This document shows, in pieces, positions 2,780 to 21,920 of a stretch of DNA of 22,361 bases. Source of the DNA: a virus; the IMG/VR virus record IMGVR_UViG_3300032308_000386, positions 1 through 22,361 of that record; one strand, given 5' to 3'. The notes beneath the pieces are model-generated. The model saw only the letters and a list, made by a program, of their open reading frames with translations. It was not told where the DNA came from and made no database searches. The position numbers and the translations under genes are program-made. How positions within the stretch are numbered: position 1 is the first letter of the stretch; every line of letters starts with the position of its first letter.

Positions 2780-3820
2780 TTACCAAGTATTATATTGATA
2801 TTTTGTTTTTAGGTAAGACATTACATTCGCATATTCAATAGTAGTCAAAACTCTATTATAAACTATAAACTCAAACATACTGATTTGAGTAGTAGAAGGA
2901 TTACCAGGGTCTGTACCTAAGTTTAATATTGTAGCATTAGATAATGAAAATGCTGTTGAACCACTTGTACCAATCACATCATTAAATGATGCTGTAAAGA
3001 ATGAATTACTCTGTCCTGATGTAGCAAGTAATAATGGGCTAATTAATCTAGTTGGAGATACAGATGAACCTGGCGTCTTTCTAGCAATTGACGTTAATGC
3101 GGTATTCCTTGATTGCCAATCCCACGATGTATTACCAGAAGAACGAACTTCAATAGACCATCCATTAGCATCTGTATTAAATATTTTCATTACAGCAAAT
3201 ACAGTTGATGATGAATAATCAGCAGTTGTAAAAGTACCACTCATATTATCTCTGCCTGCGAAATACACACTTTGACCTGTATAACTTCCTAATGTCTCAG
3301 TATCTATACTTGGTTGTCTAGAACCTGTGCTTTGACTGACTGAACCACCCAACAAACCATAGTTAGTCCAAGATGATACTGATGCTCCACTTGTAGAAAT
3401 ATACCAGTGTTGTAAGTTAGTCAAACCTGACGGATTAAATGGAGCAGGTGTTCCACTTGGAGTTGGAGTATTTGTCGGAGTGGAAGTATTAGTTGGTGTT
3501 TGTGTTGTTGTAGGAGTAGATGTGCTAGTTTGTGTTGGAGTAGCACTTGGTGTTATGTTCCCTGTTGAACTTGGAGTTGGAGTAGGCGTGGGCGACACAT
3601 CAGGACTTGGAGTTGTTTGTCCTATAACTGTTCCACCTTGTTGAATAGAAACATCATATCCATCAACACGTCTAAATCTTGAACGCTTGATGTCCCAACT
3701 ATCAAAAGCATTAGCATTTAATGGAGTTTTTATTTTTCCTTCAACTTGCTTTTGAGGCGAATAAAAGGTTTGTTGTTTCCCTAATACACCCCATACTCTT
3801 TTTTCTATTCTATTACCCAT
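2780..3820 (-). CDS. LamG/concanavalin-like tail or capsid adhesin with Pro/Thr linker
   Basis: The 346-residue protein has three parts. Residues 1-68 are a basic N-terminal region (RIEKRVWGVLGKQQ) that could be the virion-anchoring part. Residues about 69-130 are a Pro/Thr/Ser linker. Residues about 131-346 look like a LamG/concanavalin-type beta-sandwich: it begins GLTNLQHWYISTSG, has SVYFAGRDNMSG and ASSSTVFAVMK-like strands, and ends with the typical FEFIVYNRVLTTIEYANVMS helix and turn. Such domains commonly bind glycans, so a surface-binding role is reasonable inference. It follows the terminator after the tail-tube-like gene, so it is probably expressed at a lower level by read-through or from an unseen promoter. 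The exact virion location is unknown. Confidence 0.75.
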   Translation of the reverse strand: MGNRIEKRVWGVLGKQQTFYSPQKQVEGKIKTPLNANAFDSWDIKRSRFRRVDGYDVSIQQGGTVIGQTTPSPDVSPTPTPTPSSTGNITPSATPTQTSTSTPTTTQTPTNTSTPTNTPTPSGTPAPFNPSGLTNLQHWYISTSGASVSSWTNYGLLGGSVSQSTGSRQPSIDTETLGSYTGQSVYFAGRDNMSGTFTTADYSSSTVFAVMKIFNTDANGWSIEVRSSGNTSWDWQSRNTALTSIARKTPGSSVSPTRLISPLLLATSGQSNSFFTASFNDVIGTSGSTAFSLSNATILNLGTDPGNPSTTQISMFEFIVYNRVLTTIEYANVMSYLKTKYQYNTW

Positions 3821-5434: not shown

Positions 5435-6217
5435 TTATTTTTTGTGGAAACCTTGTCTAATACTAACAAGTTGAGATATGTAATCATCTTTCGCCTGGTT
5501 TAGTTCAGTTTGGATTTGATTTTTACCCATTCTTATAGGTTCTCCTGCGGGTTCCTTCGCAAACTTGGAGACCTTCTTTTTCATTTCCTCTTGGTCTGCT
5601 ACGATACTATCAATTTTATCTTTGATTTCTCCTAATACAGCCATTAGTTCCTTCTTGAAACCTTCCATATTGTCGTTTCCTTGTGATAGACCTGGAGTAG
5701 TCATACCCATTTCTTCCTCTACTTCTTCCATTTCTGGTTCAGGAAGTTCAACATTCTCTCTTTCAGTAATTTTTCCGTCTTTGGTTTTAATCTTGATTAG
5801 AACTTCTTTACCTTCAGTATCTTTGAGTTTCAACTCATGCTCACCATCTGGTGCTAATTGTTCTTTTCCATCAGGACTTACTACCTTAACTTCTTCACCT
5901 ACATCAAATGTTGGGGATTTAACTAACGTTCCATCCTTTAGCATCGCTTCTACGAAGTTTTGTGTTTGTTCCATATTTTCATAATTTATTTTTTGGACTA
6001 GTCCGTCCTTAATCGTTATTTTAGTTGTATCGTCCAACTCAAACTCACCATCAGGTGCTGGTATTTGCCCGTCTTTATTTATAATATAAATAGGTTCTCC
6101 AACAGCCAAATCACCTTCGGTGATAATTTCGTTGCCATTTTCTTTGATTTTGTAAGAATTAAACTTATTCAAACCTAGCAACTTGTTTATTCTGCGTATA
6201 GCATCTTGGTATTTCAT
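5435..6217 (-). CDS. Capsid scaffolding-like protein with duplicated PDGE module
   Basis: A 260-residue, highly charged protein between the protease fusion and the capsid gene, the usual place of a scaffold. Residues about 36-76 and 106-155 are two copies of a similar unit containing APDGEFEL and APDGEHEL, each followed by a Lys/Thr-rich beta hairpin ending KDG. Residues 158-170 are a glutamate-rich linker, about 184-218 form a predicted coiled coil (ELMAVLGEIKDKIDSIVADQ), and the C-terminus is basic (GFHKK). Long helix plus basic C-terminus is typical of scaffolds that bind capsid subunits. The gene overlaps the protease gene by four bases (ATGA), so cleavage by that protease is plausible. 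No experimental link is available. Confidence 0.7.
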   Translation of the reverse strand: MKYQDAIRRINKLLGLNKFNSYKIKENGNEIITEGDLAVGEPIYIINKDGQIPAPDGEFELDDTTKITIKDGLVQKINYENMEQTQNFVEAMLKDGTLVKSPTFDVGEEVKVVSPDGKEQLAPDGEHELKLKDTEGKEVLIKIKTKDGKITERENVELPEPEMEEVEEEMGMTTPGLSQGNDNMEGFKKELMAVLGEIKDKIDSIVADQEEMKKKVSKFAKEPAGEPIRMGKNQIQTELNQAKDDYISQLVSIRQGFHKK

Positions 6218-8412
6218 ATAATTTTTTTTAGAATATCTTTGATTTCTTTAAGTATTTTATTGTTGTCGGCACTAAACTTTGCTCTTTCAAGAAAATAACC
6301 TTGAACGGAAAAACCATTTAATTTACCTTCTTTGACTTTTTGCCAAATAGTGTCGTCGTCAATCTTCATAGAAACCATCCAAGTCCCTTTTGGATAATCC
6401 ATACCGAAAACTTGTTGTTTATCTTTTGCTGGGTCATCAACAATCCAACTCTCAACCACAGATACTCCATTCAAAAATCTTCTTCCGTGTTCTACATTTG
6501 TCTTGTCTAATAACTTTTCCAACATAAACTTCTGTTGAAGTTTCTTTATAGTTTCAGCCGTGAAATATACATAATAGATTTCACCAGTTATTTCATTTCT
6601 CCTAATAATCATTTTATCAGGAACCATCGCAGGGCCAACAACCATTTTTTCCTCCATACTAAATACAGAAAAACTCATCTCATTTCGTATAGATTTTAAT
6701 TTGTCTGCCGCCCAATTTATTCCTGTTGTTCCACCCCATCCTAACCAAGCAACATAACCTCTGTCTTTCCAAGGCGTATCTTTGTATTCTGGTGCTACTT
6801 CACTATTTTTTTGATGTCTTTGGAAACCAGACATTCTGGCTATTGTTTCTTCACTAATGTTTTCACCTTTACATAGTTGGTTTGCTCTAATCCAACCTAT
6901 TTGGGTCATTCCATCAACTTCGTCTCCATATTCTTCTTTCCACTTGATTACCTTACAAGCGTTATTTTTTGCTGAAGTAGGATAGTCGTTATATGCCGCA
7001 AAATCTTCTATTGATTGTTTTACATATTTTGGATGTTCCTTTGGCAATAAATCATTATCACCTGTATATTTTGAGTTCTCAGGTCTTCCTGTCTTTAACA
7101 TATACAGAAACGCATTTACACGAGCATAAGCCCACTGTTCTGCTGACTTTACCTTTGGTGAGTGTGAAACATTAAAGGCTCCTAATCCTCTTTGGAATAC
7201 TGATTTTAATGCCCCTAAAGTAGCACGACCATTCTTGGTATTACTTTCTTTTTCGTTGAAGTCATCAACCTTTTGTTGTAATGTTTTTTCTTGTTCGGCA
7301 GATACTTTTGCTCCTCTTTTACCTGAAGCATCACCTTTAGCAGTTCCTTCTCCTTTTGGGTCTTTGTTTGGTGTATCACTCTTTGGGGCTTTATCACTTT
7401 TATTAATACCACCTCTTGGGCCTATTTCAGCAAACTCTTCAAGTATTGCCCCATAATTCATCATAGGATTATCACTTCCACCTACATCATCAGGGTCTTC
7501 ATCTTCATCTGTCTCATAACTTGTGTCTTCCTTTGGATGTGTCTTACAAGGCATATACAAAGTTTTACCACCATATTCGTGGGGATGCGAACCCTCACAA
7601 CCAATCAACATAGCAATTGCTTCAGCGTCTTCTTGTTTCTCAAATAAAGGTAATGAAGCAAGGACTGGTCTTTTCTTTGGTTTTGATATTTGTTCTACAT
7701 AAGGCGATAAAGCACTTACATCAGGATTTGATGCTGCGAACCCTACTCTTGGTGGAGTATTACCCGCTTCTATTGTTGCGGTTGTTCTTGTATCCGGTCC
7801 TGGCATATCGTCCTCATCTTCTACTCCTGTGGTAATTTTATCATTATTGATAATTCTACCCTGTCTTTCATACATAAGTTGAACCCATCTATGACGACAA
7901 TTATATGACCCTCTCCAAGTAAAAATATCATAACCATCAGGCCCAACCTCATTTACAGAACGATTACTCATTTCCATAATGTCTTCAATTCTAAACACTC
8001 TACGAGCAGCCATCATTTCAGCACAGAAGGTTCTATTGAGTTCATCTTTCGGCCCAACATACTTATATCTAAATCTTACATCAGGAGTATCTTGTGCTGA
8101 TGGTAAATTAGGATTACTGATAATTTGGAAATCTTGTTTTCCAACTGACTTAACAGATGTAATCTCCCAACCTTCTTTTTCAAGGAAACCTTGTGGTTCT
8201 CCATAAGCATGAAACATCTGTATTACTTGTGGTATTTTTTCCTCAGCAAGAATATAATGAGAACATTTGCCGTCCTCACAAGGTGATTGTTCCTCTTGAT
8301 TAAAGTATTCAAAGTTTGCTTCGTGTGCCGGCATTTCTACCAACGCAATACCATCAAGACCCGCTTCGTTGTCTCCTTCCTGAATTATAAGTTCAATAAT
8401 TTTAGGGGTCAT
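6214..8412 (-). CDS. Multidomain head morphogenesis protein with C-terminal XkdF-like (S78_2) prohead protease
   Basis: The 732-residue protein is much longer than a simple prohead protease. Residues 1-195 include CEDGKCSHY and a FTWRGSYNCRHRWVQLMYER segment (about 164-183), reminiscent of the cysteine/histidine end of Mu gpF-like minor head proteins. Residues 271-292 carry a Cys/His cluster (C272, H276, H278, C289, H292). A Lys/Gly/Asp-rich linker follows to about 375. Residues about 402-443 (FQRGLGAFNVSHSPKVKSAE) resemble DUF5824, and about 483-575 form a further domain ending WLGWGGTTGINWAAD. Residues about 588-712 match the XkdF-type protease: MVPDKMII, EHGRRFLNGVSVVESWIVDD, YPKGTWMVSMKIDDDTIW and LNGFSVQGYF. 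H642 and S702 are the likely catalytic pair. It would process scaffold and capsid subunits; extra roles are unproven. Confidence 0.8.
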   Translation of the reverse strand: MTPKIIELIIQEGDNEAGLDGIALVEMPAHEANFEYFNQEEQSPCEDGKCSHYILAEEKIPQVIQMFHAYGEPQGFLEKEGWEITSVKSVGKQDFQIISNPNLPSAQDTPDVRFRYKYVGPKDELNRTFCAEMMAARRVFRIEDIMEMSNRSVNEVGPDGYDIFTWRGSYNCRHRWVQLMYERQGRIINNDKITTGVEDEDDMPGPDTRTTATIEAGNTPPRVGFAASNPDVSALSPYVEQISKPKKRPVLASLPLFEKQEDAEAIAMLIGCEGSHPHEYGGKTLYMPCKTHPKEDTSYETDEDEDPDDVGGSDNPMMNYGAILEEFAEIGPRGGINKSDKAPKSDTPNKDPKGEGTAKGDASGKRGAKVSAEQEKTLQQKVDDFNEKESNTKNGRATLGALKSVFQRGLGAFNVSHSPKVKSAEQWAYARVNAFLYMLKTGRPENSKYTGDNDLLPKEHPKYVKQSIEDFAAYNDYPTSAKNNACKVIKWKEEYGDEVDGMTQIGWIRANQLCKGENISEETIARMSGFQRHQKNSEVAPEYKDTPWKDRGYVAWLGWGGTTGINWAADKLKSIRNEMSFSVFSMEEKMVVGPAMVPDKMIIRRNEITGEIYYVYFTAETIKKLQQKFMLEKLLDKTNVEHGRRFLNGVSVVESWIVDDPAKDKQQVFGMDYPKGTWMVSMKIDDDTIWQKVKEGKLNGFSVQGYFLERAKFSADNNKILKEIKDILKKII

Positions 8413-8451: not shown

Positions 8452-10731
8452 TTATATTGTTGAACGAGTTTTGATGTTTCTATCCATCATTTGTTGATTA
8501 GTCATATCACTCGCAACTACATAAGTTTTGATTGGTGCTTGATTTATAGATAAAGTATCCTGTAATTGTGATAATGCTTGGTCTTGTGAGAATGAACCTA
8601 TCGCAAGTCCTCCATCAGCAAATCTCTTACCTCCACCAATAGAGTTTATAGAAGATAATAGTGGTCTAAACATCGCTGTAGATTGTGCGTTTATTACACT
8701 CTCACCATTACTCAACATCGCAGGTATTAAATCACTTTTGGGGCCTCCTATTCCTTGAACCAACCCACCAGTTGCCATTCCTCTTGGTTTTGGAACTGAT
8801 GTACCCGAACCAGATGAACCTCCATTACCACCACCGCCCCCACCAGCACCAGGAATAGGTGTCTTAACAATATCACTAACTGCTTTGAAACCAACTAATC
8901 CTGTGGCTATTGCTTGAACTATCGCATAAGCGGGTATTGGAACATCAGCAAATGCGTTCAACTGACCTGCTATGGCAGCATAAGTATTGATTAAAGATGC
9001 GGCTATTGCGAGTGCCTTACCTTCTTTTGTATTTTTACCGAGAATATCCCCTAATGCGTTTAATGCTGATGCTGTTGCTTGTAATAATGCTTGTTGAGCC
9101 TGAAACCTCTTTTGTTCTATTGTTATTTGAGTTTCAGCATTAGCCCTTAAATCAGCAGTTTGTTTGTCCCTGATTGCCTTGATTTGTTCGGCATTCAATC
9201 CTTCACGAGCAAGTTGTTCGGTATAATATATGTCGTCTAATCTTCTCTTTTCATCAAGTAGTTGTTGTTGAAGTTGTAAGTCCCCTTCAGCAGCCTTCAT
9301 ATTATCTTGGAACTGTTGGTCTTGAACCTTTTTGTTTTCTTCAGCAGTTTTTAGTGCTCTGTCTAAATCACTTCTAAATCTCTTGTTGTTCTCAATTTGG
9401 ATAGTAGCGGTGAGTTGTCTTTGTTGTAGTTCAAGTTCCTTAACTCTCTGTGCCTCATCTTCTGTTAGTGTTCCAACTTGTTTTTTTCTTTCTTCATATA
9501 AAGCAAGTTCATCACTTATAGTTTTCTTTTGTGTCGCAAAAATCTCATCTTGAACCTTTCTTGCCTCAACTGAGTTTTCGTTGGATAAATCTTTAACTAA
9601 ATTATAAGTGATTGTGAGGTCATCTATAATTTGTTTGTTCTCTTGTTGTTTTGACTTTACCCTATCCTGAAACGCCTTTGTATCAAGTTCTTTTTGTTTG
9701 TTGGCAAACTCTGTCTGTTTGTTTAGATAATCAGCATCAAGTGCTGTAAGTGATGCCACATAATCCTTATACTCTTTTGAGTTTTTTGGATATAATGCTT
9801 GTGTCTGTTCTAATAATAATTTCTTTGACTTATATGTATCTTCAGCATATTTCTTCTCAATATTAAATCTATCTTGTTCTGTCTTAGCGTTGGATAAAGC
9901 AATAGATTTAGCCTTATCAAGGTCAGCCTGTCTTAACTTTTCTTGTTGTTCGTAATTCGCCTTTGTTTTTTCCAAATATTTGGCATGTGCTTCAGCGGCT
10001 TCTTCTAAGTTCTTCTTTTGTGTTTCGGTAGTTTCCTTTGTTCCTTCTTCATATCTACCATAAGCCTCCAAACCAGCATCAACACCAGCAGTTATTGAAC
10101 CTGTTAGTTGCTTCATACCCTCATCAATAAGGGCTGTATCCATCGTGAATATACCAATAAGAAGTTTTCCTGCTCCAACACCCACATCTTTAATCATGGT
10201 AAATAAACCATATAGAGTGGAATAAAGCATACCAATACCTTTAATAACATATGGTAATGCTTGAACTACTAAATCAATTAAAAGGTCAAAAACTGGTTCT
10301 AAAGCAGTAAAAATACCCCCCAAGATTTGCTCAAAGGCAATCATAACAGGCTCCAACTTCTTCATCGCTTTTTCATTCTGCGTGAAGGCATTAACCAAAA
10401 GTCCTACTAATGAAACTACTAATCCAATACCAGTAGCCTTGAGTGCTAAACCGAACTTATTTGTTGAAGATGTTATGGTGTCTAAACCTCTACCTAATTT
10501 CCCGACAATACCAGGTGCTCCTGCTAAACTATCAATCCAATCTTCACTTTGTCCTCTTGCGGTTTTTGTAGCATCACCAATATCGTTGATACGTTCCTGT
10601 ATTCGTTTGAACTCAGCACTACCTGCGACAGTTTCTTTTTGTAATTTCTTTAACTCACGAAGGCTTTTTAATGTACCTTCAGCGTTAATCGCAGCATCAA
10701 TTCTAACCTGTAATGTTTGTGGTTGTGCCAT
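8452..10731 (-). CDS. Tail tape measure protein
   Basis: The 759-residue protein has tape-measure architecture. The N-terminus is helical, with hydrophobic segments at about 92-116 (GLALKATGIGLVVSLVGLLV) and 130-180, then a long coiled-coil region from about 225 to 560 that is rich in Lys, Glu and Gln. Near the C-terminus are a hydrophobic helix pair (ALAIAASLINTYAAIAGQLN), a Gly-rich hinge (about 642-660), and the characteristic ATGGLVQGIGGPKSDLIPAM / LSNGESVINAQST motif found at the end of many tape measures. Tape measures set tail length; at the known ratio of about 0.15 nm per residue this suggests a tail of roughly 110 nm. Its ATG overlaps the stop of the small gene upstream (TAATG). It sits immediately before the head genes, an unusual order. 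Confidence 0.9.
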   Translation of the reverse strand: MAQPQTLQVRIDAAINAEGTLKSLRELKKLQKETVAGSAEFKRIQERINDIGDATKTARGQSEDWIDSLAGAPGIVGKLGRGLDTITSSTNKFGLALKATGIGLVVSLVGLLVNAFTQNEKAMKKLEPVMIAFEQILGGIFTALEPVFDLLIDLVVQALPYVIKGIGMLYSTLYGLFTMIKDVGVGAGKLLIGIFTMDTALIDEGMKQLTGSITAGVDAGLEAYGRYEEGTKETTETQKKNLEEAAEAHAKYLEKTKANYEQQEKLRQADLDKAKSIALSNAKTEQDRFNIEKKYAEDTYKSKKLLLEQTQALYPKNSKEYKDYVASLTALDADYLNKQTEFANKQKELDTKAFQDRVKSKQQENKQIIDDLTITYNLVKDLSNENSVEARKVQDEIFATQKKTISDELALYEERKKQVGTLTEDEAQRVKELELQQRQLTATIQIENNKRFRSDLDRALKTAEENKKVQDQQFQDNMKAAEGDLQLQQQLLDEKRRLDDIYYTEQLAREGLNAEQIKAIRDKQTADLRANAETQITIEQKRFQAQQALLQATASALNALGDILGKNTKEGKALAIAASLINTYAAIAGQLNAFADVPIPAYAIVQAIATGLVGFKAVSDIVKTPIPGAGGGGGGNGGSSGSGTSVPKPRGMATGGLVQGIGGPKSDLIPAMLSNGESVINAQSTAMFRPLLSSINSIGGGKRFADGGLAIGSFSQDQALSQLQDTLSINQAPIKTYVVASDMTNQQMMDRNIKTRSTI

Positions 10732-10959: not shown

Positions 10960-13287
10960 TTAGGTACAACACTCATTAATAGTTCCACCTGATATAGTAA
11001 GGAAGTCAAATGTTGGACTTGCGATTTCACCACAAGAAGGTAGTGGGGCACATTCCACATCACTTGTAGCAATAAGTACATTACCAGTCGTACCTGCCGA
11101 TATAAATGTACTTCCTGTTGAACTATCGCTATAATGTGCTATAACATTCATATCAAATGGAGCCGCTATTGTAGTTCCACTACAAGTATTAAAGAACCTT
11201 ATAAACGTATCTGTTGTACTGAAGAAATTACCAGGACAATCAACACATTCTCCAGGAGCACTTTGCTCCGATATTATTGTATAACAATATGGATTACTTG
11301 TTGGTGATGGTGTCTGTGTTGGTGATGGTGATGGTGCTACTGATGTACCAGTTTGAGTATTGGTTGGTGTATTAGTAGGTGTTGATGTATTAGTTGTTGT
11401 ATTTGTTGGAGTATTGGTAGGTGTTTGTGTAGGTGTTGATGTTTGACTATTTGTTGGTGTATTAGATGGAGTTTGAGTTGGAGTTGCCGTCGGTGTTGGG
11501 GTAGTTCCTGGTTCTACAACATTTCTACCTAATGTTGTATTGAATGTTGTTATTGCGTCTCTTAAACATGCTAGTTCAGTAGTGGTTAATCCATCACCCA
11601 AGAATGCTGAACCTAAACCTCTGTTAGTATAACCACCAAATCCATTCGCTTGAAGAATACCAACTGATGTACCAGACCTACCAATAGTTGTATTTTGTGT
11701 TATTGTTTGTACTCCTCCACCTGCTCTAACAAAAGATACTTGAGAATTATTTGTTCTAGTTATTGCGAAGAAGTTTCTTGCTTGTGTGGTTGTTGTACCA
11801 GTTAAGGTGTTTAGAGAACCTGTCTGAATTGAACCTCTTGTATTTGTACCATTTGATGATTGAATAACTAACCATCCTGAAAGATATTGTGCTCCAATCT
11901 CAAATCCAGTAGTACCCGTTTGAGATATGAAATATCCTATTGTTGTATTTGCTGATGTCGGAGTTTGTGCGCTTTCAACCCAGAATGTATCAGCATTAGC
12001 GTTTATACCATCACCTTTAATCCCTCTTTCTTGAGAAAATACTACTCCACCACCGAATACTAATCTAAATGCTGCGTTAGTATCAACAGGATTTTTAGCA
12101 TTCCATTTAGCAGATGCCGCAGTACCACCCAAGAATGGATATAGAGCATCCAACTTGGCATAAACATTACAAGATTTTAATGTGGTAAATAATGTCTGTG
12201 TTGCCGCAGATACTGTTGCTGTAATACCTGTTCCACCAGCAGAGACGACTGCTTCAAGGTAAGCATTTGCGTCTGTATCACCACTTGATATTGGACTTGA
12301 TGTTGGTGTATTAGTAGGAGTTGCTGTGTTCGTAGGAGTACTTGTATTAGTTGGAGTATTAGTTGGAGTATTCGTACTTGTATTTGTTGGTGTATTAGTA
12401 GGAGTACTTGTGTTTGTACTTGTGTTTGTAGGGGTGTTTGTCGCAGTATTAGTTGGTGTATTTGTAGGAGTACTTGTATTGGTACTTGTATTAGTTGGAG
12501 TATTTGTGGCAGTATTAGTTGGAGTATTCGTAGGAGTTTCAGTATTGGTTGCTGTGTTTGTAGGTGTATTCGTGGCTGTATTAGTTGGTGTGTTTGTAGG
12601 TGTTTCAGTATTTGTCGGTGTTTGTGTAGCAGTATTAGTAGGCGTATTTGTAGGAGTACCTGTTGGAGTTTCTGTGTTAGTAGGTGTTTGTGTAGCAGTA
12701 TTAGTTGGAGTGTTAGTCGCAGTTTGTGTTGGAGTTTCTGTGTTAGTTGGAGTATTAGTAGGCGTTCCTGTTGGAGTATTGGTAGGAGTATTTGTAGGCG
12801 TTTCTGTGTTAGTTGGAGTGTTAGTCGCAGTTTGTGTTGTGGTATTAGTTGGTGTTTGTGTCGCAGTTTGTGTATTAGTTGGTGTTTGTGTAGAAGTATT
12901 TGTAGGCGTATTTGTAGGCGTTTCTGTGTTAGTTGGAGTATTAGTCGCAGTTTGTGTAGGAGTATTCGTAGGAGTATTCGTAGGCGTTTCGGTATTCGTA
13001 GGTGTTTGTGTAGCAGTATTGGTAGGAGTATTAGTTGGAGTTTCTGTCGTGGTATTAGTTGGTGTTTGTGTCGTAGTATTAGTTGGTGTTGTTGTATTTG
13101 TTGGAGTATTGGTAGGTGTTTGTGTATTTGTAGGAGTATTAGTTGGTGTTTGTGTATTAGTTGGAGTATTTGTCGGTGTTGGAGTGTTTGTTGGAGTAGG
13201 GCACGCAGTACCACTCGGTGTATTACTCAACGTTATTGTAGGTGAATTACTTGGAGTGGGTGATACTCTTAATCTAAAGATAGTCAT
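10960..13287 (-). CDS. Adhesin-like protein with ~300-residue Thr-x repeat, concanavalin-like domain and C-terminal Cys domain
   Basis: The 775-residue product starts [20 protein letters not shown]. Residues 31-329 have threonine at every odd position without a break, the other positions being mostly Pro or Asn with some Gln, Glu, Ala, Ser, Gly or Thr. Residues about 335-590 resemble a concanavalin-like module found in phage structural proteins ([60 protein letters not shown]). A second Pro/Thr tract follows at about 592-662, then a C-terminal Cys-containing domain ([20 protein letters not shown]) ending ECCT. The layout is anchor, long stalk, binding domain, stalk, tip. A fibre or surface decoration that binds host glycans is inference. 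The nearby gene at 13300-13851 shares its N-terminal leader. No signal peptide is seen. Confidence 0.75.
11300..11511 (-). repeat. Second Pro/Thr-coding tract
   Basis: This DNA codes for a second Thr/Pro/Asn/Ser-rich linker inside the 775-residue protein ([17 protein letters not shown] and similar). It is shorter and less regular than the first tract. It joins the concanavalin-like module to the C-terminal Cys domain. Confidence 0.8.
12301..13197 (-). repeat. Long Thr-x dipeptide-coding tract (six-base period)
   Basis: About 900 bases code for roughly 150 Thr-x dipeptides in unbroken register. Codon third positions vary freely (on the plus strand GGAGTA, GGTGTA, GGCGTA; ATTAGT, TTTGTA, TTCGTA), so copies are not simple recent duplicates. 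Higher-order blocks recur, for example the protein string [17 protein letters not shown] twice around residues 261-297. Long open frames on the other frames and strand here are by-products of this period. Confidence 0.9.
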
Positions 13288-13299
13288 TTTTTTACAGAA

Positions 13300-13851
13300 T
13301 TAACAAGGAGGACTTAATGTGGAGATAAACCCACTATTATCTACTTGTATAGAAATACCTGAATTAGGGGCTGAAACACTCTTATAATACTTGCTATTAC
13401 CAGCAAGGACAGTAGTTAAACCAGCATTTGTATAAAGTACTTTACCATCATCAAATACATCTTGGAATGTTAGAGGACAACCACCAGCATTAGAGAAATA
13501 TACTGTTAATGGTGTTCCAGTTCCATTACAAGCCTCATTAGAAGTATCCCAACCTTGTGTGCCAGGTGATTTAGATACATCAAAGTATATTATCAAACTA
13601 CAAGGTAAAGGTGATGGAGTATTAGTTTGTGTTGGAGTAATCGTAGGTGTGGCAGTATTCGTTGGAGTATTGGTCTGTGTTGCTTGAATAGTTTGTGTTT
13701 GAGTTGGTGTATTTGTTGGTGTTTGTGTCGGCGTAGGAGAAGTACCAGGACAAGCAGTAGAACTTGGAGTATAACTCGGTGTTATAGACGGAGTTAAACT
13801 TATTGTTGGACTAACACTTGGAGTTGGAGTAGGTGTGTATCTAAATGCCAT
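13300..13851 (-). CDS. Small adhesin-like protein with Pro/Thr stalk and C-terminal Cys domain
   Basis: A 183-residue protein beginning [20 protein letters not shown]. Residues about 6-82 are Pro/Thr/Gln/Asn-rich; residues 84-183 form a compact domain with cysteines at 84, 108, 125 and 183 and the pattern [20 protein letters not shown] ... [20 protein letters not shown]. The latter resembles small beta domains that cap phage fibres ('LYTD..LTT...G...YY'). Its leader ([13 protein letters not shown]...STACP) parallels that of the downstream 775-residue gene ([16 protein letters not shown]), suggesting paralogy. It follows the 1089-residue tail protein by 15 bases and precedes the larger adhesin by 12. 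Function as a tail tip or fibre component is inference from composition and context. Confidence 0.7.
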
Positions 13852-18748: not shown

Positions 18749-19324
18749 TTATTTGATTGGTTCTTGAATTATAGTTGTTAGGAACTTTTGAAGGTCAATA
18801 CCAAGTTTTGCCACAGGCCCATTAGGATTGTTGAATGCGTCAATCAAAGTATCAAAACTATCATCATAGAAATTAGTAGGTTGAATACCATATTCTTTTA
18901 TAGATTTAGATATTGCGAATGCTGCCCCCTTAATATTAAACTTCTTGAACCTACCTTTTGGGTCTCTATTCATACCCTTTGCTCTCATCCACGCCATCAA
19001 AGGTTTTAATGGAACATATTTACCAGGTTGTCGTCCATCATTAACATATCTCCAATAATCCAACATATTAATCTTCATTTTATTTGTTTCAGGGTCAAAT
19101 GATACTTTTATGGAGTTGTATAATGAACCAGTTTTCTGTCTCATATTTCTTTTACCTGTTGATGATTTTTGACCGAAAAATCCTGGTGCGTAAGGATATG
19201 GTTTTGCTAGATTTTCTTTAAGTGATTTCTCAAACATATTAGCAAGTTCAGCCATAGCCGCATCAAAGTTCGGTTGTGGTATTTGTTGAAATGAATAGTA
19301 TTGATATTTACTCGCTTCTTCCAT
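18749..19324 (-). CDS. HK97 gp10-like head-tail joining/neck protein
   Basis: I chose the ATG at 19322-19324 (191 residues, MEEASKYQYYSFQQIPQPNF) over the upstream ATG at 19355-19357, which would add a short hydrophobic extension overlapping the previous gene more deeply. Hallmarks of the gp10 family are the TGSLYNSIKVSF segment, DYWRYVNDGRQPGKYVPLKP (the conserved 'Y...G..PG..P....L..W' pattern), MAWMRAKGM, and FAISKSIKEYGIQPTNFYDD towards the C-terminus. Proteins of this family sit at the head-tail interface. It overlaps the terminator-like gene by 17 bases and is followed by the 535-residue tail protein after one base. The pairing with a terminator-like gene strengthens the call. Confidence 0.75.
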   Translation of the reverse strand: MEEASKYQYYSFQQIPQPNFDAAMAELANMFEKSLKENLAKPYPYAPGFFGQKSSTGKRNMRQKTGSLYNSIKVSFDPETNKMKINMLDYWRYVNDGRQPGKYVPLKPLMAWMRAKGMNRDPKGRFKKFNIKGAAFAISKSIKEYGIQPTNFYDDSFDTLIDAFNNPNGPVAKLGIDLQKFLTTIIQEPIK

Positions 19325-19856
19325 CACTATTATTATCACAAGGGGGGAATGCCGCATAAGGTGCGATACATCTGTTTATTGCGTCAGGAACTCTCAATCT
19401 TATATTACCAGTCCAACCATTTACATAGTCATCATATGCCTCACCAAATGGGGTCATATCTATTGGATAATCAAGGTCAAGATTACAATAACATTCCATT
19501 CCTGTTGCGTATTTTAGTTGTGCTATAACATCTTTGAGAATATCTAATGTGTCGCTATATGTGTCTAACTCATTATCAAAGTTTTTAACATTCTGTATAT
19601 CCATAATCAAAATGCTAAAATCATAAGTAGTTTCTCTACCATCTGTTTTTGCTGAGTTAGGTATAACCCACATAGCAGGATAGAATGGGGCTTGATTGAT
19701 TTGTACGTTGTCCTGTTTCAATCTCATTTCAGTTTGATAGATTAGTTGTTCCACATCACCAAATCCCCAAGATTGTATTTGTTCGTGATAATCTGCTAAT
19801 TGTCTTAGCAAGTCCATTATCTTCTTAAAATTATAGTATCCTACCGCATTTGCCAT
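19308..19856 (-). CDS. Tail terminator/completion-like protein
   Basis: A 182-residue protein starting MANAVGYYNFKKIMDLLRQL. It has an N-terminal helix, then FYPAMWVIPNSAK, a strand with ETTYDFSILIMDIQN, a helix with LDILKDVIAQLKYATGM, and the C-terminal segment PFGEAYDDYVNGWTGNIRLR followed by VPDAINRCIAP. The alternation helix - strand - helix - strand and the closing 'GW.....I.VPD..NRC' pattern are what I associate with tail terminator-type proteins of Bacteroidota phages, which cap the tail tube and join it to the head. The ATG lies one base after the TAA of the shifted frame upstream. The name is inference from pattern and neighbours; other neck proteins are possible. Confidence 0.6.
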   Translation of the reverse strand: MANAVGYYNFKKIMDLLRQLADYHEQIQSWGFGDVEQLIYQTEMRLKQDNVQINQAPFYPAMWVIPNSAKTDGRETTYDFSILIMDIQNVKNFDNELDTYSDTLDILKDVIAQLKYATGMECYCNLDLDYPIDMTPFGEAYDDYVNGWTGNIRLRVPDAINRCIAPYAAFPPCDNNSDGRSE

Positions 19857-19857
19857 A

Positions 19858-20645
19858 TTATCTTTGTTTCATTTGTTGTTGTATCTTTTGAGCCTCTCGT
19901 CTCCTGATGTCGTTTATATCCTTCATATATGATAAATAGTTGAGAACAAACACTAACGGATATTTAGTAATTTCTTCAACTTTTGTAATATCCTCGTTCG
20001 CCAAGGAAACAAGAGTAGCGAACCAACCCCAAAACTTATCAAAGGAATGAACTTCACGAGTATCCAAATCATCTTTGCCATCAATTTCAACTTGAGGCCG
20101 AAAGAGCCCTGAAAATTGCCTCGCAAGGTTTTGTCTAAATGAAAAAAAAAATTGGTAGAACCACGAACATAACGGACGGGGAGTTTCTTGAACTCCTCTG
20201 CTTTAAGTTGTAATTCTTTTGAGTTGTAAGGTTTGTAGTTTCCTTTATCATCTATTTCCCTATACAACATCGCCATCAATAGTGGCATCTCCCTTTTCTT
20301 TTCGTGTTCTTCTTTTGAGAGGTATGTATCAATATCTATAAACTCACCAAATGTTAGATTTGGTAAATCAAGAAATCTGTATTTTTTATCGTTGAACTCA
20401 AACTCATTATAGAACTTGTCCCCATTTTGATTTAGGAATGCTGAGACCTCATTTGATACTTTGACTACTTCCAAGTAATCACTATTCTCAATTTCTTCTT
20501 CTGTTAATCCTGTGGTGAATGATAATAACTTTACACAGAACTCACGCTCATCAGTCCATTCTTGTAATAATACAAGTTTAGACCACATTTCAACTGTGGG
20601 TTCATCAATCTGGTATTGTTTGTTTTTGTAGTTAAACTTCATCAT
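19858..20645 (-). CDS. Tail assembly chaperone-like gene split by a -1 frameshift at a T10 run
   Basis: Two overlapping frames belong together. The first starts at 20645 (MMKFNYKNKQYQIDEPTVEM) and stays open to TAG at 19953 (230 residues). The second, in the -1 frame, ends at TAA 19858 and is open far upstream of the overlap; its only nearby start would be TTG at 20067. Joining them at the T run (20142-20151) gives about 262 residues, passing STNFFF to SFRQNLARQ and ending in DITKVEEITKYPLVFVLNYL. After the run the first frame looks like shadow translation, whereas the second looks like real protein, and the next gene starts one base after its stop. N-terminal features (LTEEEIENSDYLEVVKVSNE, GEFIDIDTYLS) suit chaperone-like proteins. 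Programmed slippage or a homopolymer miscount would both explain it. Confidence 0.65.
20142..20151 (-). promoter_or_regulatory. T10 slippery run, candidate -1 frameshift or transcriptional slippage site
   Basis: The minus strand reads ACCAATTTTTTTTTTCATTT, where the first frame reads AAT TTT TTT TTT CAT. Slipping back one base at the end of the run reads TTT then TCA and enters the second frame. It contains the U-UUU-UUU heptamer, an efficient ribosomal slip site. A GC-rich 5-bp stem, GAGGC (20118-20122) with GCCTC (20094-20098), lies downstream, but about 19 bases away, further than usual. Confidence 0.5.
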
Positions 20646-20681: not shown

Positions 20682-21920
20682 TTATCTAACAACATAAGTT
20701 CCATATGTTGCTTTTTTCTTGAACGAATGATATGATAATGCTAGTGATATTACAGTATCATCGTGGAACCCATTAGGAGACCCGTACTTGACTTTTCTTG
20801 ACTTGGGTGAGTATTCATATGTAAAGACAGAAAGTTCTTTGTATAGGTCTGTATTGAGGTCTGGTGAGGCTAGTTTAATTTTGGTCTCATTCATACCCAT
20901 AATCAAATCTTCAATCAGGTTTTGCTTACTATCATTACTGGTAATGAATGGTTGAACGGAGGGGTATTGTCTTTTAATCTGTTCGTATAAAACATCACCA
21001 ATACTATTAACCTCGGCAAAACATACTGGTCTCCATTTCCTTAACTTAGCAACAACTTCACTAATGATGATGTCCCAACTCTTTTGTCTCTCCCTATAAA
21101 AATCAACCATATCCCCATCCCCATTTAATATAGTCAAAACCGTATAGTCATTTTGACGACCAAAGTCCAAACCAGCATAATATTTTTTGGTGGGGTCATA
21201 AGCAGGGTAATTATTCAATACACAACTATTTTTTAATGAACCGAATACTTCACCACCATCATCTATGAACTCTGCTAATATCTCCTGTTTATAGATTGTT
21301 TCTGGTAAAGATAATTTCGCTTCTTCCAATTCTTCGTGTGTGATAAATGGTGTATCAAATGATGTAGCAAAGAATGTTTTATAGGTGGGGTATTCATCAC
21401 TCATACCTCGTAATGCTACTTGATGAAACCAGTTCTTTCCTTTTGGTGTAGATATGAATAATACCTTCTTACCTTGAACCAATACTGTTGGTCTTAATAC
21501 TTCCATCCAAACATTATCTTTGATATATGCTGCCTCATCAATAACAAGATAGGTCAAAGTATAACCTCTCAAAGTATCTTCTCTCTCACCACTCCTAAAA
21601 TACATTACAGACCCGTTAATGAATGTGATGGTGAGTTCGCTTTTATTGATTGACTTGGTAAGCCCTGTTCCTGCGATTGTATTTGTTAATTCTGTAAATA
21701 CTTTTTTTGCTTGAGAATAAACTGGTGAAACCCACATGGATACGGAACCATTATCTTCTAAAGCCCATTTGAGTAATAAGTTCATAGCAGTAAATGATTT
21801 CCCCGATTGTCTGCCAAAACAACCGACTATGTATTTGATGTTCTTTGATAAACAAGCATCAATAATCTCCTTCTGTTTTATGGTAGGGGTGAAACCTTGA
21901 ACTACTATTTCTTTATTCAC
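20682..21920 (-). CDS. Terminase large subunit
   Basis: A 412-residue packaging motor and nuclease. The ATPase domain shows Walker A GRQSGKS (36-42), Walker B LVIDEA with D128 and E129, and motif III STPKG (157-161). The nuclease domain has the RNase H-like acidic residues D252 (AGLDFGRQND), E303 (CFAEVNSIGD) and D387/D388 (GFHDDTVISLALS). Together with the small subunit it docks at the portal, pumps DNA into the prohead and cuts it. The start is GTG at 21918-21920, overlapping the small terminase stop by eight bases; the next Met is after Walker A, so GTG is right. The length is slightly short for the family (often 420-560) but all key motifs are present. The headful or cohesive-end type cannot be told from sequence alone. 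Confidence 0.95.
   Translation of the reverse strand: MNKEIVVQGFTPTIKQKEIIDACLSKNIKYIVGCFGRQSGKSFTAMNLLLKWALEDNGSVSMWVSPVYSQAKKVFTELTNTIAGTGLTKSINKSELTITFINGSVMYFRSGEREDTLRGYTLTYLVIDEAAYIKDNVWMEVLRPTVLVQGKKVLFISTPKGKNWFHQVALRGMSDEYPTYKTFFATSFDTPFITHEELEEAKLSLPETIYKQEILAEFIDDGGEVFGSLKNSCVLNNYPAYDPTKKYYAGLDFGRQNDYTVLTILNGDGDMVDFYRERQKSWDIIISEVVAKLRKWRPVCFAEVNSIGDVLYEQIKRQYPSVQPFITSNDSKQNLIEDLIMGMNETKIKLASPDLNTDLYKELSVFTYEYSPKSRKVKYGSPNGFHDDTVISLALSYHSFKKKATYGTYVVR

Follow-up and report, generated by a model that had tools for sequence, protein, structure and literature searches.

A −1 ribosomal shift is a known route in phages lambda and P2, and a stimulatory RNA structure or SD-like element is common, though not obligatory, in −1 ribosomal frameshifting. 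Exploring a viral DNA stretch of 22,361 nucleotides (IMG/VR record IMGVR_UViG_3300032308_000386, positions 1 to 22,361; the window), we found a gene that resembles lambda G/GT in that two predicted proteins have a common N-terminus, the longer one would arise via a −1 switch close to where the first gene ends, and the arrangement is conserved across divergent phages. The gene lies on the minus strand (Table 1), and its zero frame at 20151-20142 reads AAT TTT TTT TTT CAT, a run of ten T (T10). As described in the first-pass annotation, two overlapping frames are joined at this run. The zero frame encodes 230 aa and continues for 62 open codons past the site to a TAG, while the −1 frame, extending from the run to a TAA at 19860-19858, gives a joined product of 262 aa. 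The next gene follows one base after this stop, with its ATG at 19856. To that description we add selection on the zero-frame tail. Nearly all full-length homologues measure 262 codons minus one base, and one BFVD protein (A0A6J5M6A3) is 230 aa long and 82% identical to the zero-frame product.

Table 1. Position and supporting matches of the frame-switched gene, its parts and its neighbours in the window.
Feature	Coordinates	Strand	Evidence or remark
Terminase large subunit (TerL), upstream neighbour	20682..21920	-	PF03237 1e-17, phrog_2 1e-49
Whole frame-switched gene	19858..20645	-	Joined product 262 aa, G+T-like
Shared N-terminal (G-like) domain	20152..20645	-	Conserved in all relatives; model pLDDT mostly 75-90
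Zero-frame CDS	19953..20645	-	230 aa, G-like plus 62-codon tail past FFF, stop TAG
T10 switch site (predicted)	20142..20151	-	In-frame U_UUU_UUU twice
−1-frame (T-like) domain	19858..20151	-	97 codons, FFFSFR...FWGWF...NYLSY
Dual-coded overlap, zero-frame tail and −1-frame domain	19953..20141	-	Stop avoidance, halved synonymous divergence
182-aa neighbour	19308..19856	-	ORF list; start one base past the −1-frame stop
HK97-gp10/Neck1-like tail completion protein	18749..19357	-	PF04883 0.0097 (below cut-off), phrog_5 4e-5
Tape measure protein candidate	8452..10731	-	phrog_25241 7e-15; about 9 kb downstream

A T10 run in the window is unremarkable by itself (0.73 expected by chance, from shuffles), so that comparison had to decide and conservation of the run is the evidence. 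Searching IMG/VR with the joined protein gave 35 relatives. The match falls one base under the codon count in 34 of them, with T10 or, in L034, T9; only L002 carries T11 and an unbroken frame, and its twin L033 has T10. Further profile searches, which used either half or distant members as query, widened the set to ~40% T-domain identity and beyond, and clustering at 75% nucleotide identity reduced 92 gene copies, from many independent metagenomes, to 41 clusters that include the cultured Nonlabens phages P12024S and P12024L. T9 was present in 63 copies and T10 in the other 29, the T domain always being in −1 relation. The run starts at codon base 3 in 36 clusters, at base 2 in four and at base 1 in one; in the main class its first T is a wobble base that is retained against codon usage (log10 P ~−5, a value that ignores shared descent). 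A scan of genome contigs yielded a sole match, L161, in which the pattern lay in unrelated ORFs and was attributed to chance. An alignment of mixed fragments (A4) proved to be misaligned and was set aside.

The first-pass annotation had cautioned that the run might be miscounted, ten T for eleven, and one metagenome contig alone could not have excluded a miscount in sequencing or assembly, or a plain frameshift mutation. Contigs in which an extra T produces an unbroken frame do exist, but only two were found, L002 (T11) and L227 (T10), and both have near-identical twins of standard length, L033 and L226 (T9), respectively. L002 differs from L033 by two indels with no mismatch over 1263 bases; for L227 (1753) and L226 (2501) the comparison showed one gap and 3 mismatches over 4411 bases. 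The extra T of L227 would so be an error or a rare length variant. Alignment with related phages, which had been proposed as a check, revealed that the run and the −1 relation are conserved in all 41 clusters, two cultured phages among them. Given T9 or T10 in so many independent metagenomes, the standard-length twins and purifying selection on both frames, a miscount is effectively excluded for the family, and we regard this explanation as extremely improbable. Together, the conservation strongly supports a frame switch that is real, programmed and conserved.

Conservation of the T domain begins at the run. Upstream of the run the T frame is closed by stops, one of them directly before the run in 5 of the 41 clusters, and no ATG, GTG or TTG precedes the run in the T frame in 38 of the 41, indicating that in these 38 the conserved part can be entered only by a frame switch. 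The same two observations ruled out an independent start of the T domain, which had been considered as a candidate. In P12024S, the annotated gene 39 starts inside the T domain.

The slip site named by the first-pass annotation, U_UUU_UUU, is a slippery heptamer (X_XXY_YYZ) and was found in frame in every copy. We infer that the ribosome is the agent: a −1 ribosomal shift is likelier than slippage of RNA polymerase and is ranked first on precedent. No downstream RNA structure was detected (z 0.59; 0 consensus pairs), leading us to reject a pseudoknot or stem, and no consistent purine motif was seen upstream that could act as SD-like stimulator. The competing explanation holds that transcripts gain or lose a U at T9/T10 through RNA polymerase slippage and that the mRNA fraction with one extra U is translated normally to give the G-T fusion. 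It fits the finding of no RNA stimulator, and it fits the length of the run, which was never shorter than nine T in the 92 copies; the heptamer alone does not require nine. In many bacterial genomes, selection against slippage becomes apparent once a run reaches nine A or T (PMC1088944), and nine is also the figure given for slippage in bacterial transcription (PMC5009743). Transcriptional slippage, which leads to mRNAs of unequal length at the run, calls for at least nine A or T irrespective of codon position, and all copies carry T9 or T10, in phases 0, 1 and 2. In nearly all copies the third frame, reached by loss of one U, runs into a stop within 2-4 codons, so that any deletion products would be short. 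Length alone is not decisive, however, since any T9 also holds an in-frame U_UUU_UUU, and the need to code Leu/Phe in the zero frame accounts for two of the nine T where the run has the main codon phase, though less well in the five clusters of other phase. Moreover, the chaperone shifts discussed in the literature considered are ribosomal, and literature pairing tail assembly chaperones with transcriptional slippage amounted to general works only. We consider polymerase slippage a serious competitor, though not the favoured route.

Were the fusion and a short G the only products of use, stops would be expected to accumulate in the zero frame past the site; that this frame stays open argues for dual coding. 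To measure stop avoidance, the T frame was randomised among synonymous codons with the codon use of the non-overlapping parts. Randomised zero frames stayed open for a mean of 9-31 codons, compared with 57-83 codons in the real genes (32 clusters). In the larger set the zero frame was open for 46-104 codons in 40 of 41 clusters, with P<0.05 in 37 of 41; these per-gene P values, and not the total of stops, are the proper test of stop avoidance, and the clusters are related and do not count as independent trials. The exception was P12024S, with 27 codons after the run start and no significance. Zero-frame stops within the overlap numbered 0 against 134.5 expected in 32 genes, the overlap being stop-free by definition. 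The same shift applied after the overlap, in the N-terminal region and in nine other genes of the window gave counts near expectation (z −3.0 to 1.5), and the other shifted frame held more stops than expected (299 vs 236). Synonymous divergence was 0.29 of expectation in the overlap vs 0.62 before and after it, and was lower also at codons without stop risk (p 0.007). In the clade of the window, but not in distant clades, the zero-frame tail exceeds the hydrophobicity and basicity that synonymous choice predicts. Judged from these comparisons, selection maintains both C-termini, encoded by one and the same stretch of DNA, and the zero frame is not idle past the site, which is new here.

The same signals could in principle stem from a different constraint, acting on DNA or RNA through a structure, a motif or a regulatory site, with the zero-frame tail as a by-product and only G and G-T of use. 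The short tail of P12024S agrees with this explanation, as does a hydrophobicity that is not conserved and is TM-like in the clade of the window only. It accounts poorly for the specific absence of zero-frame stops next to an excess in the other shifted frame, for the finding of no RNA structure, and for a window-clade tail that is hydrophobic and basic beyond synonymous prediction, and we consider it unlikely. A transmembrane tail as the general function was rejected given its restriction to that one clade; a clade-specific membrane or helical segment is our guess at what the tail might be. Joining the two questions, RNA polymerase slippage might set the isoform ratio while the ~60 dual-coded codons give the short isoform a selected tail of its own, resulting in two functional tails, a combination that we find doubtful. 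The alternatives are not mutually exclusive, as route, identity and meaning of the tail are separate questions.

To identify the protein, we compared members of the family with profile and structure collections. The phrog_166 profile ('tail protein') matched 35 of 49 members (best 1.7e-4) and Pfam Phage_TAC_7 matched 13 of the 49 (best 0.005), all of the latter below cut-off. The model of the zero-frame product (pLDDT 75.7) matched BFVD proteins of uncultured phages, of Nonlabens phage P12024S and of Flavobacterium phage 6H, some of them named tail assembly chaperone; the structural matches so labelled had E values of 0.0066, 0.013 and 0.19. Searches of PDB by sequence and by fold, and of NCBIfam, returned nothing useful. 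The fused form, modelled from L002 as found, had a poorly supported N half. The −1-frame domain showed a weak but uniform match to Pfam DUF3929 (10 of 10 members of A2, best 3.4e-4). Taken together, phrog_166, Phage_TAC_7, the BFVD labels, the context in the Cellulophaga phage Ingeline and the gene order point to tail morphogenesis, no single line being conclusive. The chaperone identity suggested by the first-pass annotation thus gains support from weak profiles, fold matches and remote Duneviridae homologues, and stops short of proof.

Two predicted products that share an N-terminal domain through a frame switch were found at the sequence level in all 41 clusters, as befits G/GT, a family whose members also bind the tape measure and the tail tube, stay out of the virion and are made at a fixed G:GT ratio. 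A position just before the tape measure gene, which is typical of G/GT though not strictly defining, was seen only in remote homologues, e.g. Ingeline, in which two genes separate the homologue from the tape measure gene. In the window the gene adjoins the terminase and not the tape measure candidate (Table 1), as the first-pass annotation had remarked. The order in the relatives examined is TerL, the frame-switched gene, a gene of ~150-180 aa, one of ~170-200 aa (some Neck1-like) and one of ~500-600 aa, and a gene similar in size and position to the 182-aa neighbour is present in them as well. This location, together with the weak profile matches and the lack of a solved relative, would suit a programmed two-product virion or assembly gene other than a tail assembly chaperone, but the convergence of several weak chaperone signals and the G/GT logic itself make such a gene quite unlikely.

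Other features of the window were recorded as well. The genes at 19308-19856 and 18749-19357 overlap by 50 bases in different frames. A 732-aa protein (6214-8412) carries a C-terminal XkdF-like protease domain and a segment similar to the end of a portal family (phrog_33693), while the portal gene itself lies far away, at 503-1648. Several proteins with long Thr-Pro-Asn repeats (PTNTPTNT...) are encoded at 10960-13851 and 2780-3820 and are probably fibre-like; the repeats also give long spurious ORFs in other frames.

Relatives among phage records surfaced only through the fold match to P12024S, tblastn of the window or L103 protein against 50,697 phage records having given no match. In P12024S and P12024L (genes 38-39, 40-41) the gene resembles that of the window in following TerL, in its T9 run (CTT TTT TTT TAT) and in the T domain in the −1 frame, indicating that metagenome assembly is not the cause of the split; the P12024S gene aligned with the family at hhalign E 7.7e-14. 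They differ in the codon position at which the run starts, in a shorter zero-frame tail and in being annotated as two separate hypothetical genes, part of the T domain forming a gene of its own. Relatives with a single frame of 259-301 codons and no long T run were found in Flavobacterium phages FPSV-F7 and laban6-1, Cellulophaga phage Ingeline, Polaribacter phage Leef and a Microcystis phage. The Duneviridae among them (FPSV-F7, laban6-1, Ingeline) share with the window both domains, their order and FF at or near the junction, and aligned with the family across the junction (hhalign E 1.5e-14), but are encoded in one unbroken frame of 293-301 codons with no run of at least 7 T. Thus, on alignment, the gene exists in both fused and split versions. 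Homologues with the same domains in one unbroken, run-free frame had been put forward as evidence against a switch; they are confined to remote relatives (Duneviridae, the Microcystis phage and Leef), and the conservation of the split form stands. In Flavobacterium phage 6H (L165, 10352-10927) the homologue is annotated with 191 aa, whereas the near-identical FPSV-F7 (L166, 1501-2382) has an unbroken frame of 293 codons; a short garbled stretch of indels in 6H looks like a sequence error. The host of the window phage is probably a member of the Bacteroidota, as suggested by the cultured relatives (Nonlabens, Flavobacterium, Cellulophaga and Polaribacter phages) rather than by a direct host link.

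We propose that the locus encodes a tail assembly chaperone of the G/GT type in a family of tailed phages, most of them uncultured, and that it is expressed by ribosomal slippage and carries a selected zero-frame tail; we assign this reading as a whole a probability of about 0.58. Most ribosomes would read T9/T10 in the zero frame and make the G-like protein with an extra ~60-residue tail, while a minority would slip back one base on U_UUU_UUU and make the G-T fusion, in which the 97-residue T domain replaces the tail. If the proteins work as they do in lambda, G would form a coat on the tape measure protein, and G-T, the less abundant of the two, would bring in tail tube subunits. Annotation pipelines record the zero-frame half only, or two halves as in P12024S, which makes it easy to misread this structural gene of aquatic phages. 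Natural split (switched) and fused (Duneviridae) forms of one gene make the need for a G:GT ratio directly askable, and a homopolymer site in a cultured phage allows a clean comparison of ribosomal shift with polymerase slippage in phage assembly. With so long an overlap under selection, the notion that the non-shifted chaperone simply stops close to the slip site becomes questionable.

Compared with lambda G/GT, the site here is a homopolymer of T9/T10 and the gene adjoins the terminase. P2 gpE/E+E' (Phage_TAC_7) shows weak N-terminal profile similarity and has an annotated −1 frameshift; gpE differs in having 91 aa, in ending 20 nt past the annotated site and in lying beside the tape measure gene T. 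The slippage sites of Shigella mxiE and Thermus dnaX likewise consist of a conserved A/T run of about nine bases that joins two frames, but those are cellular genes in which RNA polymerase was shown to be the agent, whereas here it is a candidate. The zero-frame tail greatly exceeds the usual length: the annotated SEA-PHAGES set used to train PRFect has a mean of 26 nt from slip site to zero-frame stop (PMC10885494), compared with a median of 186 nt from the end of the run to the zero-frame stop in this family.
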